Shown here: positions 10,859 to 15,206 of the stretch, piece by piece | How the letters are laid out: each line of letters begins with the position of its first letter | Position numbering within the stretch: the stretch's first letter is position 1 | From: a virus | Length of the DNA stretch: 23,132 nucleotides | IMG/VR virus record: IMGVR_UViG_3300042453_000843 | Location: 1-23,132 of that record | Strand: one strand, 5' to 3' | Notes under the pieces: model-generated | What the model saw: only the letters and a program-made list of their open reading frames with translations | Database searches by the model: none | Told to the model about the DNA's origin: nothing | Program-made: the position numbers and the translations under genes

Positions 10859-11923
10859 CTAGAGTTCGTAAGCGAAAAGAGATCCGTTCATTGCGAGGGT
10901 GGGAGTGCCACCACCAGAAAGGCTAGTACAGGCACATTGGAGGGTATACGTGCCCGCAGGCAAAACAACAATCCCATTAAGGCTTGAGGCAGGAATGATT
11001 AATGGTCCTGATGCAGAAACCTCACCCGCAAAAGCAATGTTAAGATAATTTCCAGCAGTAAACCCAACCGGAGGCGATGCCGATGTAATATTTACAGCAA
11101 TTGACGCGCTGCAATAATTAGCTCCAGCAGAATTATCCAGTCGGATTCCAGCAGAGTTAGGAGCCGTTGTTATGGTCGTAACGCCAACAAACAAGGGACG
11201 CCCTGTGGTCGTAATGTTTACTGGCAACAACAAGTTGCCTGGAGCAGTATTTGGACCGTCAAATTGATATGCTGGGACAATCTGGCCTACAGCAACAAGC
11301 ATGGAACGTTGAATGCCGCTGGTCTGCGTGATGTATCCGATTGTGCCGCCCGTAGTGCAAGTCAGAAACGAGTTACTCGCAGGAACCGCAGACGGCAGCG
11401 ACAACGTATAGGCACCAGAACCGGATGACCGATTTACGGTAATGCCATCAATTACCACAGATGAGCAATCAACGGTGCCTACGGTAAGTCCGGCGGGATT
11501 GGAATTTTCATCATCAAACACAAACGAAAGAGTTGGGGAGTCATAGTTGACGGCTGCGTTAGGCACGATCCCGCCAATATTACCGCTACCCCCAACGTTT
11601 ACAGTGCCACCGCTAGTGATCTGAACGTTGTTGCCTGAGCCGTCGTTCCACCAGAGCTCGCCGTTGTTGGCGTATACCGAGTTAAGCGAGGCAAGCGACG
11701 CCTGATCCAGCAGACCTAAACGCTTGACGTTGGTGAGCGCGTTGGTTGCCAACGACAGGTCCGCGTTGATATTCAGCCCCGTTACAGGCACCAGCGCGCC
11801 GTTGCCGCTCGTGTGGTTGTGCGAGTCGATCAGCGACAGGTCCGCGTTGATCTCGCTCGCCCACGTCGGTCCCGGCGTCTGCGACACCACCGGCAGGGTC
11901 AGGTTCATGTTTGGCGTCGTCAT
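10859..11923 (-). CDS. Second tail fibre / receptor-binding-type protein
   Basis: 354 residues. ATG 11923 has GGAGG 8 nt upstream. Residues 1-60 look like a conserved virion-attachment module of environmental phage fibres (WASEINADLSLIDSHNHTSG). It contains H35-x-H37, a pattern that binds iron in some phage spikes. NNGELWWNDGSGNNVQITSG at 86-105 is another common fibre phrase. From about 110 to the end the protein is beta-rich and low-complexity (Gly, Ser, Thr, Asn) and unfamiliar; it probably holds the host-contacting tip. The 5' part is about 63% G+C (11701-11880) while the distal part falls to about 46% (10981-11160), as expected if the tip was exchanged. The TAG stop lies next to the ribosome site of the following gene, 9 nt before its start. 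Confidence 0.8.
   Translation of the reverse strand: MTTPNMNLTLPVVSQTPGPTWASEINADLSLIDSHNHTSGNGALVPVTGLNINADLSLATNALTNVKRLGLLDQASLASLNSVYANNGELWWNDGSGNNVQITSGGTVNVGGSGNIGGIVPNAAVNYDSPTLSFVFDDENSNPAGLTVGTVDCSSVVIDGITVNRSSGSGAYTLSLPSAVPASNSFLTCTTGGTIGYITQTSGIQRSMLVAVGQIVPAYQFDGPNTAPGNLLLPVNITTTGRPLFVGVTTITTAPNSAGIRLDNSAGANYCSASIAVNITSASPPVGFTAGNYLNIAFAGEVSASGPLIIPASSLNGIVVLPAGTYTLQCACTSLSGGGTPTLAMNGSLFAYEL
11753..11851 (-). repeat. 18-nt exact direct repeat inside the second fibre gene
   Basis: The plus-strand string cgacaggtccgcgttgat occurs at 11753-11770 and again at 11834-11851, exactly 81 nt apart. It encodes INADLSL twice in frame (residues 25-31 and 52-58). Confidence 0.85.
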
Positions 11924-11957: not shown

Positions 11958-13784
11958 TTACGCGCCCAGAAACTTTGCACTCGCGATAATACCGGGAATC
12001 TGCGGATACGGCGTAGCAGCGGTAATGGTTGAAATCTGAGCGTTGGTGCCAGAAGCCGTCAGCGCCCACTCAATGTAGTCGTTTGCATCCAGCCGGATTG
12101 TAAACGAGATTGCTGGGTACAACAGCGAGTTATTGTTGCCCAACTGCACGCGACTTGCGCTACGAGCCACGTTAGCGCCGTTTTTCATCACCCAAATCGT
12201 GATGTCATCGTTGCTTCCGGTCACAAGTTCCAACTGCGGCGAGAAGAAAAACTCGTATACTCCGTCGTACGGAACCGTGATCTCTGAGTTGCTTACAAGA
12301 GTGATGCCGTTGTTGTCTTCAACGGTGTCGTACGTTGCCATCAACGCAGTACCGCCGCTCGGGATAGCGGTTGCAACGGTATTGTCGGTCAGGCTAATAA
12401 AAATAGCTGGGAAGTCTTGTTGCGCTTGCGGAACCCATGAGGTTCCGTCGTACGTCAGCGTGTCGTCGGTGGCCGGAAGAACGGACGTAATGTCAATCGG
12501 CTGGCCCTGCCATGACAACGACGGCGGCGATGATGAAGCGCCGATTGCAATCGCTGCTGTGTTCTGATCGCCAATGATGACGCTGCCGTTAGTAGTTCCT
12601 GCGCCGCCTCGGATCGTGACATCGCCGCCCGTGGCGTTGGTGGACGTGTTCTGCCCGCCAATGATGTAAACGTCGCCGCCGTTGCGACCCGCGCCACCGC
12701 TGCCGCCCTGGACGTAGGCGTCGCCACCCGCAGTCGCGCTGTTGCCGGCGAACCCACCCTTGACGCGCACCACGCCGCCAGCGCCCGTGCCAACGCCCGT
12801 GCCGCCGACGATCTCCGCGTCGCCACCTACGCCGTTGGTCGCGCTGCCCTGCCCACCCTGCACATACGCGCCACCGCCCGCCCAGGTGCCGACGCCACCG
12901 TCGCCGCCGTACAAGTACGCGCTGCCGCCGCCGCCTCCGGTACTCGCGGAGCTCCCGGTGCCAGCCTTGATAGTGACATCGCCACCGGGAACGTTGACAA
13001 ACGGGTTGATGCCGTTCGCGTCGCCCGCCTTGATGCCGATGCTGCGATCCACATTCGTCGGCGTCGTGGACGTGGTGTCCATCTTGAAGAACGTCGTGAC
13101 GGGGTTGCCAAACGCATCCGCGCCATAACGGACTCGGATGTAGCCCTCACCGGGGACCGTAAAGGTGTCAGCCGCAAGTCCGTTGGGGTTGGGGTACGTG
13201 CTGCTCGTGTACCCCAGAACGCCGCCAGCAGGGCCGCTAGGCGTGGCCGTGGCCGCGCTGCTCGCCCAACCCGTGCCGGTGCTGGTCAGCACATTGCCAA
13301 TCGCGCCAGGACTCGAGAGGCCCGTGCCGCCGTTAACCGCCGCCACTACGCCGGTCAACGAGATGTCAGGCGTCGATCCACCGGACGAGGCCAGCGGTGA
13401 CGAGGCGGTGACGCTGCCAACCTTACTATTAAAGGTGACCCAGTCGGCAGAGTCAAGATAGCCGTCTGTGGTCGCGTTAGCCTGCGGGATCGACAGCACA
13501 CCGCTGGAAATCACCAGCGGAGGCAGCACGCTGGTCACCACGCTGCCAACGGTCCCTGGAGCCCACTGCGTGCCGTTCCAGACGATGGCTTGGCCGGTGC
13601 TGGGCGCCACGGCAGATAGCGAGCGCCCTTGCAGTCCAACGACACTAGGGCTCTCAAGCGGCCCCGTCAGGTCGCCCTGCACGTTGCGGAGAATGGGATT
13701 CAGCGCGGAAGCAAGCTGATCCTGCAACCTGTTCAGCGAGTCGTCTACGCTGAAGATGCGGGAGAGTTGCTTGATGGTCGGCAT
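11958..13784 (-). CDS. Tail fibre with glycine-rich repeat shaft and C1q-like tip
   Basis: 608 residues. Residues 1-35 form a helical attachment end (DSLNRLQDQLASALNPILRN). Residues 36-200 hold short fibre modules: TGQAIVWNGTQWAPG at 63-77, DGYLDSADWVTFNSKVG at 107-123, and VNGGTGLSSPGAIGN. Residues about 267-406 contain eight to nine copies of a repeat of about 16 residues, pattern GG-x-[VA]-x-[VIL]-x-GG (GGDVTIKAG, GGDAYVQGG, GGDVYIIGG, GGDVTIRGG). A second W-type motif, TYDGTSWVP, is at 444-452. Residues 458-608 look like a C1q/TNF-type jelly roll (ITVPYDGVYEFFFSPQL, ITIWVMKNG, FTIRLDANDYIEWAL), which usually trimerises and could bind the receptor. The start overlaps the adaptor stop, so translation is probably coupled. 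Confidence 0.83.
   Translation of the reverse strand: MPTIKQLSRIFSVDDSLNRLQDQLASALNPILRNVQGDLTGPLESPSVVGLQGRSLSAVAPSTGQAIVWNGTQWAPGTVGSVVTSVLPPLVISSGVLSIPQANATTDGYLDSADWVTFNSKVGSVTASSPLASSGGSTPDISLTGVVAAVNGGTGLSSPGAIGNVLTSTGTGWASSAATATPSGPAGGVLGYTSSTYPNPNGLAADTFTVPGEGYIRVRYGADAFGNPVTTFFKMDTTSTTPTNVDRSIGIKAGDANGINPFVNVPGGDVTIKAGTGSSASTGGGGGSAYLYGGDGGVGTWAGGGAYVQGGQGSATNGVGGDAEIVGGTGVGTGAGGVVRVKGGFAGNSATAGGDAYVQGGSGGAGRNGGDVYIIGGQNTSTNATGGDVTIRGGAGTTNGSVIIGDQNTAAIAIGASSSPPSLSWQGQPIDITSVLPATDDTLTYDGTSWVPQAQQDFPAIFISLTDNTVATAIPSGGTALMATYDTVEDNNGITLVSNSEITVPYDGVYEFFFSPQLELVTGSNDDITIWVMKNGANVARSASRVQLGNNNSLLYPAISFTIRLDANDYIEWALTASGTNAQISTITAATPYPQIPGIIASAKFLGA
12567..12986 (-). repeat. Glycine-rich coding repeat array in the fibre shaft
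   Basis: Eight to nine imperfect units of about 48 nt encode the GG-x-[VA]-x-[VIL]-x-GG motif. The units are degenerate at the DNA level (runs of gccgcc/ccgcc on the plus strand), so they read as an old protein repeat rather than a recent tandem duplication. Confidence 0.7.
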
Positions 13785-15136
13785 TAGGGAATACCGCCGC
13801 CGCCACCGAACCCGTTACCGAAGGGCCACGTTCCGTTCGTCCACTGCACGTCGGCAATCGTGGCCGGCGAGCCAGCGTCGCGGTTCTCGCCCGCAGCCTC
13901 AATCCGCTTGATGAGCGCCGCCTTCTGGAACTGGAGCGTGCTCGTGTCGCTCTCTTCCTTCTGGAGCATCTTGATCGCAGCGTCGGTGACCACGTACTCA
14001 AGCCAGCCGGACACGCCGTCAGCCACGAGCGACCCAGGGCCGACGCTGCTTGCCGACAGTTGCAGTCGCGTGGACGCGCCGGGCGTGGGCGTGGGCGAGG
14101 TGCTGTTGCCAACGCTAAGAGCCAGTTCCGCGCTGTCAGTCTGCACCAGCGTGATCACATTGCCGTTGGGTGTAGCGGTCACGTCGCCGTTGGTGATCGT
14201 CGCAGCGTTGATTGCAGTCGCAAGACTGGCGGCAGACTGCGTGTTATTCAAACCAACAAGCCATTCATTGCCAGCATAAAGAGTTGCGTTTCCGATGGAA
14301 AAATAATCCCCATCTGTCCCGCCGGTAAAAAACACAAATCCAAATGTTGCGCCTGGTGACGTTAGAACGCCAGGCACACCTGTGGTTTTGACTTGAAACA
14401 AGCAAGACGGGAAAGACGCTACCGCTGACTCAAAGTCGGCAACCGTAGTAACGCCAGAGTCATATTGAAAAATATATGACGAGCCAACGGCCGATAGCGT
14501 TCCAGCGCCGACTCCAGATGCGGTAAACAACAACTCAATGCTGTTTCCGGCAGGACCACCAGACACAGCCTCAAGAACCGTTGTAATAGCGCCGGAACTT
14601 GAAATATCAAGATCAAGTTCTGCCTTAGATGCCGCGATAGGACTGTTGACCGTCAGCGTCACCTCGTCCACCAGTTCAGCCAGACGCGGGATGTACCAGA
14701 TGCGGATCGTCTGACCCGTCTGCGGCGACGGCGTGAACCAAAGCTTGTTCCCGCTCAGTCGGTAGCGCAGGTTGGTGACGCCAATCCACGTCTGCACGTT
14801 CGCGGTCGAGTAGCGGTTACGCTCTGCCAGCGAGAACGGGCGCAACGACACATAGCCATCAGGGCCGCTGCCGATCTCCAGGTCCACGCCGAGCAGCTTG
14901 TAAAAGTCGTCGGGCAAATCGTAGCGCGACTGGTTGCCCACCAGGTTGAAGGAGTACTCCTTCACGTAGTAGTCGTTGCCGTACTTCTGCACCAACAGGT
15001 CGTACAGTTCGTAGTACGAGGCGTTGATGTAGCTGTTCAACTCCGCGTCGCTGATGAACGTCGAGTTCACCATGTCGGCGCGCTGCCGACTGGCCGTGCG
15101 GAGTTGCCCGAGGTTCATCTTGGGGTAGATCGCCAT
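13784..15136 (-). CDS. Head-tail adaptor (connector) protein with a large internal insertion
   Basis: 450 residues from ATG 15136. The N-terminal part (10-157) has the look of podovirus-type adaptors that bind under the portal ring: LRTASRQRADM, AELNSYINASYYELYDLLVQ at 31-50, YDLPDDFYKLLGVD at 72-85, and IRIWYIPRLAELVDE at 144-158. The C-terminal part (373-430) is also adaptor-like: DGVSGWLEYVVTDAAIKMLQ, an EESD-type helix, and AGSPATIAD. In typical members these two parts are nearly adjacent, giving roughly 200-250 residues. Here about 210 beta-rich residues (158-368) lie between them, with lower G+C (about 49% over 14221-14460 against 63% over 14641-14880). The protein ends in a Gly-rich tail. 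Its TAA shares one base with the next ATG (TAATG). Confidence 0.83.
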   Translation of the reverse strand: MAIYPKMNLGQLRTASRQRADMVNSTFISDAELNSYINASYYELYDLLVQKYGNDYYVKEYSFNLVGNQSRYDLPDDFYKLLGVDLEIGSGPDGYVSLRPFSLAERNRYSTANVQTWIGVTNLRYRLSGNKLWFTPSPQTGQTIRIWYIPRLAELVDEVTLTVNSPIAASKAELDLDISSSGAITTVLEAVSGGPAGNSIELLFTASGVGAGTLSAVGSSYIFQYDSGVTTVADFESAVASFPSCLFQVKTTGVPGVLTSPGATFGFVFFTGGTDGDYFSIGNATLYAGNEWLVGLNNTQSAASLATAINAATITNGDVTATPNGNVITLVQTDSAELALSVGNSTSPTPTPGASTRLQLSASSVGPGSLVADGVSGWLEYVVTDAAIKMLQKEESDTSTLQFQKAALIKRIEAAGENRDAGSPATIADVQWTNGTWPFGNGFGGGGGIP

Positions 15137-15141
15137 GAGAA

Positions 15142-15146
15142 CCTCC
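15142..15146 (-). promoter_or_regulatory. Ribosome binding site deciding the adaptor start
   Basis: GGAGG is 5 nt before ATG 15136 on the minus strand. It favours this ATG over an in-frame GTG at 15154. Confidence 0.7.
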
Positions 15147-15206
15147 ACAAGCACATCAAGGGAGCGCCCTACCCTACCGTAGAGCGCCCCCCGATGCTAG
15201 CGCGAG

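Follow-up and report, generated by a model that had tools for sequence, protein, structure and literature searches.

A putative SU10-type head-to-tail adaptor carrying an insert of small, apparently exchanged modules

The head-to-tail adaptors of phages SU10 and T7 are built from a helix bundle and a fibre-dock domain, together with an embracing element at the C-terminus, the dock holding the bases of the fibres (PMC9509320, PMC6702177). These proteins (gp11 in both phages; PF24175; structures 7z47 and 6r21) are about 190-230 residues long and lack any domain at the step from the dock strand to helix a3. The window analysed here, a 23,132-nucleotide stretch of viral DNA (IMG/VR record IMGVR_UViG_3300042453_000843), encodes a protein that resembles them in its core fold, in its setting beside an SU10-type major capsid protein and portal, and in the fibre-like gene directly downstream (PMC9509320), but that carries an insert at this position.

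The adaptor of Staphylococcus phage 812 (gp96) has a beta-sandwich domain that lies on the outside of the neck and touches the capsid (PMC12886913). Although phage 812 is contractile-tailed and its adaptor is of a different type from the window's, this outer domain provides a precedent at the neck; we found no evidence there of cassette exchange in the 812 adaptor. The extra Ig-like domains known from phage structural proteins are promiscuous and horizontally exchanged beta-sandwiches of uncertain accessory role (Fraser 2006, cited in PMC9230969). The two modules described below appear to be exchanged in a similar way, but have no Pfam Ig-like match. For the extra domains of tail sheaths, weak host adhesion or particle stabilisation have been offered as roles (PMC9230969), and the domain mosaicism of phage proteins, neck proteins included, is already known (PMC10684548). 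In the literature searched, which left many journals outside its coverage, we found no description of sheath-type modules in a podophage adaptor.

The adaptor core and the limits of the insert

The adaptor ORF encodes 456 residues from a GTG codon at 15154, or 450 from an ATG at 15136 (Table 1). Its N-terminal flank matches PF24175 (SU10_adaptor) with an E-value of 3.6e-14, residues 13-166 covering profile positions 1-133 of 194 with a score of 54.1 bits against a curated cut-off of 27. The C-terminal flank alone gave no scoring match in the Pfam profile search, and aligns with the insert-free relative L012, in which the PF24175 match runs unbroken over profile positions 1-190. In an AlphaFold2 monomer prediction built from 36 natural sequences, the helices and strands of the flanks were mostly confident, whereas most of the insert, as well as the C-terminal residues 420-449 where the portal-gripping embracing loop or helix would lie, had pLDDT values below 50. 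The modelled core overlays the SU10 adaptor (7z47_B) with Z 12.0 over 191 residues at 3.4 A, the overlay spanning model residues 2-421 and both flanks, and also overlays the podophage adaptors of cyanophage A4 (Z 12.9), Pa223 (12.9) and T7 (6r21; 9.7). By this structure comparison, the two flanks together form the helix bundle and beta fibre-dock fold.

Profile matches place an SU10-type major capsid protein, a P22/SU10-type portal and a terminase near the adaptor, and another window protein matches an internal virion protein family. Taking together the PF24175 match, the unbroken match of L012, the single fold made by both flanks, and the capsid and portal genes nearby, the identification of the protein as an SU10-type head-to-tail adaptor, putatively a dodecameric ring, is supported by sequence comparison and modelling. 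Since no sheath or tube gene was recognised among the 14 window proteins scanned, the phage is likely short-tailed. Searches of the phages collection with the whole adaptor protein and with an insert-free homologue returned nothing, the adaptor profile gave spurious matches only against PDB sequences, and a scan of genome contigs for adaptor relatives yielded two, neither named as an insert carrier.

Table 1. Features of the adaptor locus in window coordinates
Feature	Coordinates	Strand	Basis
Head-to-tail adaptor gene, SU10/T7-type (putative), with inserted modules	13784..15154	-	ORF list, PF24175, core fold
N-terminal adaptor core: helices a1-a2 and beta fibre-dock domain, ending ..IRIWYIPRLAELVD	14666..15136	-	Alignment; AF2 pLDDT mostly 70-96
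Whole insert, ~214 residues (164-377), between last dock strand and core helix a3	14024..14665	-	Alignment with insert-free relatives
Exchanged (recombinant) block relative to L001, as proposed: module A and first part of module B	14225..14648	-	DNA alignment, difference map, dS, GC3
Module A (SGGPAGNSIELLFTASG ... FTGGTDG), low GC	14312..14647	-	Absent in L001
Module B (GDYFSIGNATLYAGN ... SLATAINAATITNG ... STRLQLSASSVGPG), predicted beta-sandwich like tail sheath domain II	14024..14311	-	AF2 and fold match
Retained second part of module B, normal GC	14024..14224	-	Sequence comparison with L001
C-terminal adaptor core: DGVSGWLEYVVTDAAIKMLQKEESD helices and C-terminal tail	13787..14023	-	Protein alignment; 55% identity to insert-free L012
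Fibre-like gene, 608 aa, downstream of adaptor, overlapping its stop codon (TAATG)	11958..13784	-	

A first-pass annotation, made from the sequence alone, had proposed that a block at 14033-14665 (211 codons, numbered from the ATG at 15136) splits a normal adaptor. The ORF is present as it described, along with the two flank motifs and the two modules, and alignment extends the limits to approximately those in Table 1. Its G+C values were reproduced at 49.2% over 14221-14460 and, for the flank at 14641-14880, at 62.5% (150/240, the hand count having been one base higher). Its reading of the insert as low in G+C holds for the block at 14225-14648 and fails for the last third of the insert, which is core-like. 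A 417-bp test segment of the block (14231-14647) has 48.7% G+C and a GC3 of 0.40, against 65% and 0.75 in the rest of the insert (14024-14230) and a GC3 of 0.84-0.90 in the adaptor core; so low a GC3 is found in 0.9% of same-sized in-frame segments of the window, a set that includes segments overlapping the block itself. The idea that the whole insert is one foreign block was rejected, since the odd composition is confined to part of it. Two further low-GC patches lie inside window genes, at 10877-11473 (GC3 about 0.36-0.45) and 961-1587 (G+C about 45-49%), and are perhaps further exchanged segments in tail genes.

Distribution of inserts and exchange within the clade

We surveyed 100 distinct adaptor ORFs from IMG/VR loci, 99 of which could be measured at the junction between dock and helix a3. 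Relatives with -3 to +9 residues at this point made up 85 of the 99, and 12 of the remaining rows had about 98 residues or more. On a core tree computed without the insert columns, insert-bearing rows were clustered (2 changes, compared with a shuffled mean of 11.4): the 11 carriers of an insert of the window's kind formed one clade (SH-aLRT 91), with the insert-free L086 and L087 as its sisters (support 99*). Most relatives, these sisters included, thus have an adaptor without the segment, and the conclusion that the insert is dispensable for the adaptor fold is supported. That the segment belongs to the ordinary adaptor core was ruled out, its probability being next to nil given its absence from so many relatives and a core that folds without it.

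According to the tree, a single gain, recent in evolutionary terms, accounts for the insert in the window's clade. L136, placed elsewhere in the core tree, has an insert of another kind at this junction, 109 residues long and with no similarity to the module B profile in hhalign; its adaptor (L136:2968-4101) has no PF24175 or other Pfam match, although the core is 57% identical to the window's. A more distant SU10-type adaptor (L050:695-1993) also has a long insert there, of different and possibly propeller-like sequence. Counting the window's clade and these two unrelated inserts, the junction would have received inserts at least three times.

The closest comparison is with L001, which is 97.9% identical to the window over 5.2 kb of DNA and has a 100% identical adaptor core protein, but whose insert is a single module. 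The differences between the two are concentrated in 14225-14648. Protein identity is 46% in the first part of module B and 93% in the second, and the retained part opens with 50 nt (14175-14224) that are identical in both (SLATAINAATITNGDV). Estimates of dS follow the same steps: the core has 0.06 (dN 0), the first part of module B reaches 1.85 and its second part returns to 0.15, such that synonymous divergence of the exchanged block is near saturation. From the steps in identity, dS and GC3 between core, block and retained part, we read 14225-14648 as a tract that has recently been replaced, the right breakpoint lying at a conserved LATAIN segment inside module B. Pattern searches of IMG/VR with the block sequence returned no relative that might have been its donor.

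Across the insert clade the core is 80-95% identical and module B 41-68%. In compared pairs of distinct lineages, module dS exceeds core dS, which argues for exchange between lineages beyond faster amino-acid change. Because single-module inserts are the majority in the clade, the state seen in L001 is probably older than the two-module state of the window. Another clade member, L010, has an independent two-module insert of 229 aa, both modules of which are weakly B-like in hhalign. That a breakpoint falls within module B, that a twin with one module exists and that the junction has been used repeatedly had not been noticed in the first-pass annotation.

Fold relationships of the two modules

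The proposed layout of two modules was borne out, and we refer to them as A and B. Predicted alone from 15 natural sequences, module B reached a pLDDT of 86.4. Its best fold match is the outer domain II of a contractile tail sheath (8kee_C; Z 8.6, 76 residues, 2.0 A), followed by sheath 9cba and residues 160-240 of the cyanophage P-SCSP1u nozzle gp23 (8i4m_A), both at Z 8.2. The latter places the fold in a podophage tail protein, but in a nozzle as opposed to an adaptor. Sheath, nozzle and baseplate chains range over Z 6.5-8.6, flagellins (D2/D3) and the Milano sheath over 4.5-6.0, and the hook protein FlgE2 stands at 4.1, with the first unrelated row at 3.6; in Foldseek the sheath match had a weak E-value of 0.24. 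The suggestion that the insert resembles modules of phage tail and flagellar hook proteins therefore suits module B, with sheath domain II and the nozzle at the top, then flagellin D2/D3 and FlgE2.

Profile comparison connects module B with sheaths through intermediates. By hhalign, the adaptor modules match modules of non-adaptor phage proteins (E 2.7e-14), and the profile of these intermediates, which had been selected for a motif they share with module B and include a tail tube protein as well as proteins similar to sheath domain II, matches solved sheath structures (E 1.2e-5), sheath 8fop_T among them. The adaptor-only profile of module B reached no sheath among PDB sequences. Pfam gave no family for it at E-values up to 10, neither PF17481 nor Ig/Big; PHROGs gave nothing significant, and the phages collection one weak tail-tube match (E 0.04). 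Thus, module B shares a predicted fold with domain II of contractile tail sheaths (PF17481; 8kee, 9cba, 8fop), together with a profile link via intermediates; unlike that domain, it sits in an adaptor, in a window where the 14 genes scanned include no sheath gene. We have good confidence, based on the models, that its fold is that of outer sheath domain II, with a weaker likeness to flagellin and hook domains. Formal membership of PF17481 was rejected, as there is no direct profile match and the carrier protein is an adaptor, and sheath-like beta-sandwich modules in proteins of short-tailed phages should not be annotated as tail sheath. A module-B-type domain is also inserted in a Phage_tube_2 tail tube protein (L067:4200-6029, also L068-L072).

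Module A had no relative in Pfam (E up to 10), PHROGs, the phages collection or IMG/VR, gave only non-significant matches to PDB sequences, and showed no similarity to the module B profile in hhalign. Its AlphaFold2 model had pLDDT values mostly below 50.

The fibre-like gene and possible roles of the modules

All the insert-bearing phages that we examined share a conserved N-terminal segment of the fibre-like protein. Short proteins encoded beside many insert-free adaptors have a related segment (E 1.5e-6 for L079, others down to marginal): about 35 N-terminal residues resemble the N-terminus of a protein of some 100-120 residues encoded at the same position in insert-free phages (for example L079:3669-4022). 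Judged from the sequences, this shared N-terminus may be one and the same peptide for docking to the adaptor, attached to different cargo. In L086 and L087 the adaptor is directly followed by an unrelated fibre-like gene (MATPNMGLVLPAVGVTVGP...), which would place the acquisition of the insert and the switch of the following gene on the same branch. Within the window's fibre-like gene, 12600-12900 encodes a glycine-rich repeat region with 73% G+C.

The explanation we favour is that the adaptor of an SU10-like short-tailed phage, putatively a dodecameric head-to-tail ring, has one or two small beta-sandwich modules set as a cassette into the linker between fibre dock and helix a3, an addition that the adaptor fold would not need. 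After a single gain in the clade, recombination would have kept renewing the cassette. To judge from the sequences, in the window module A together with the first part of module B replaced the matching part of a single-module form like that of L001, probably the ancestral state, with breakpoints at the cassette start and at the LATAIN segment. We consider this account of the anatomy and exchange highly probable, a judgement that leaves the function of the modules aside. Given the insertion site and the precedents, each of the 12 subunits may display its modules outside the neck, near the fibre bases. Because the N-terminus encoded by the fibre gene is conserved while the cassette varies, fibre docking probably depends on the conserved core of the adaptor, with the insert as an accessory. 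The modules may then be an accessory surface decoration, most likely acting through weak contacts with material on the host surface, a role that would account for fast module change beside a stable core.

We give accessory host contact about an even chance and rank it above the main alternative on account of the rapid turnover and exchange of the modules. That alternative is a structural clamp, with the modules bracing the fibre bases or the capsid-neck groove in the manner of a cementing or collar protein. The insertion site does adjoin the fibre-dock domain (PMC9509320, PMC6702177), one fibre-gene N-terminus is common to the insert-bearing phages examined while the insert-free sisters have another, the outer beta-sandwich of the phage 812 adaptor touches the capsid, and stabilisation has been proposed for additional sheath domains (PMC9230969). 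However, one would expect a clamp that grips conserved partners to show conservation itself, and here the modules vary in number (one or two) and in sequence (41-68% identity) while the fibre N-terminus and the adaptor core do not; moreover, the related N-terminal segment also occurs beside insert-free adaptors. We therefore regard a clamp as possible, though rather unlikely.

Neutral or other explanations together receive a still smaller share. The modules could be near-neutral domain parasites, a promiscuous fold tolerated without function in a permissive linker, and the unrelated inserts at the same junction as well as the commonness of domain mosaicism in phages (PMC10684548) would fit. 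Against this, the insert has been kept, always in frame, in all 11 rows of the insert clade after core dS of 0.6-0.9, and module dN is below dS in the compared pairs, such that we judge it improbable. Finally, the exact combination of A and B occurs in the window's contig only, and the low-GC block is sharply bounded, as might arise from a metagenome contig chimeric at 14225-14648. An assembly artefact is nevertheless very improbable: the block is in frame at both ends, its module B part matches the family found in the clade (50% identity to L009), L010 independently carries two modules, and inserts as such are present in many contigs from different samples.

Adaptors have usually been treated as conserved connectors, whereas the window's adaptor, on the reading of accessory and exchangeable modules, carries a decoration caught between two states on identical cores. 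This would extend phage domain mosaicism to the podophage neck ring, and the junction would be a naturally permissive site for fusions on a ring of 12 copies. Tentatively, the junction of fibre dock and helix a3 in podophage adaptors may be a cassette site for repeatedly exchanged, unrelated surface modules, forming a neck-borne, 12-copy, fast-changing layer of host contact distinct from the tail fibres.
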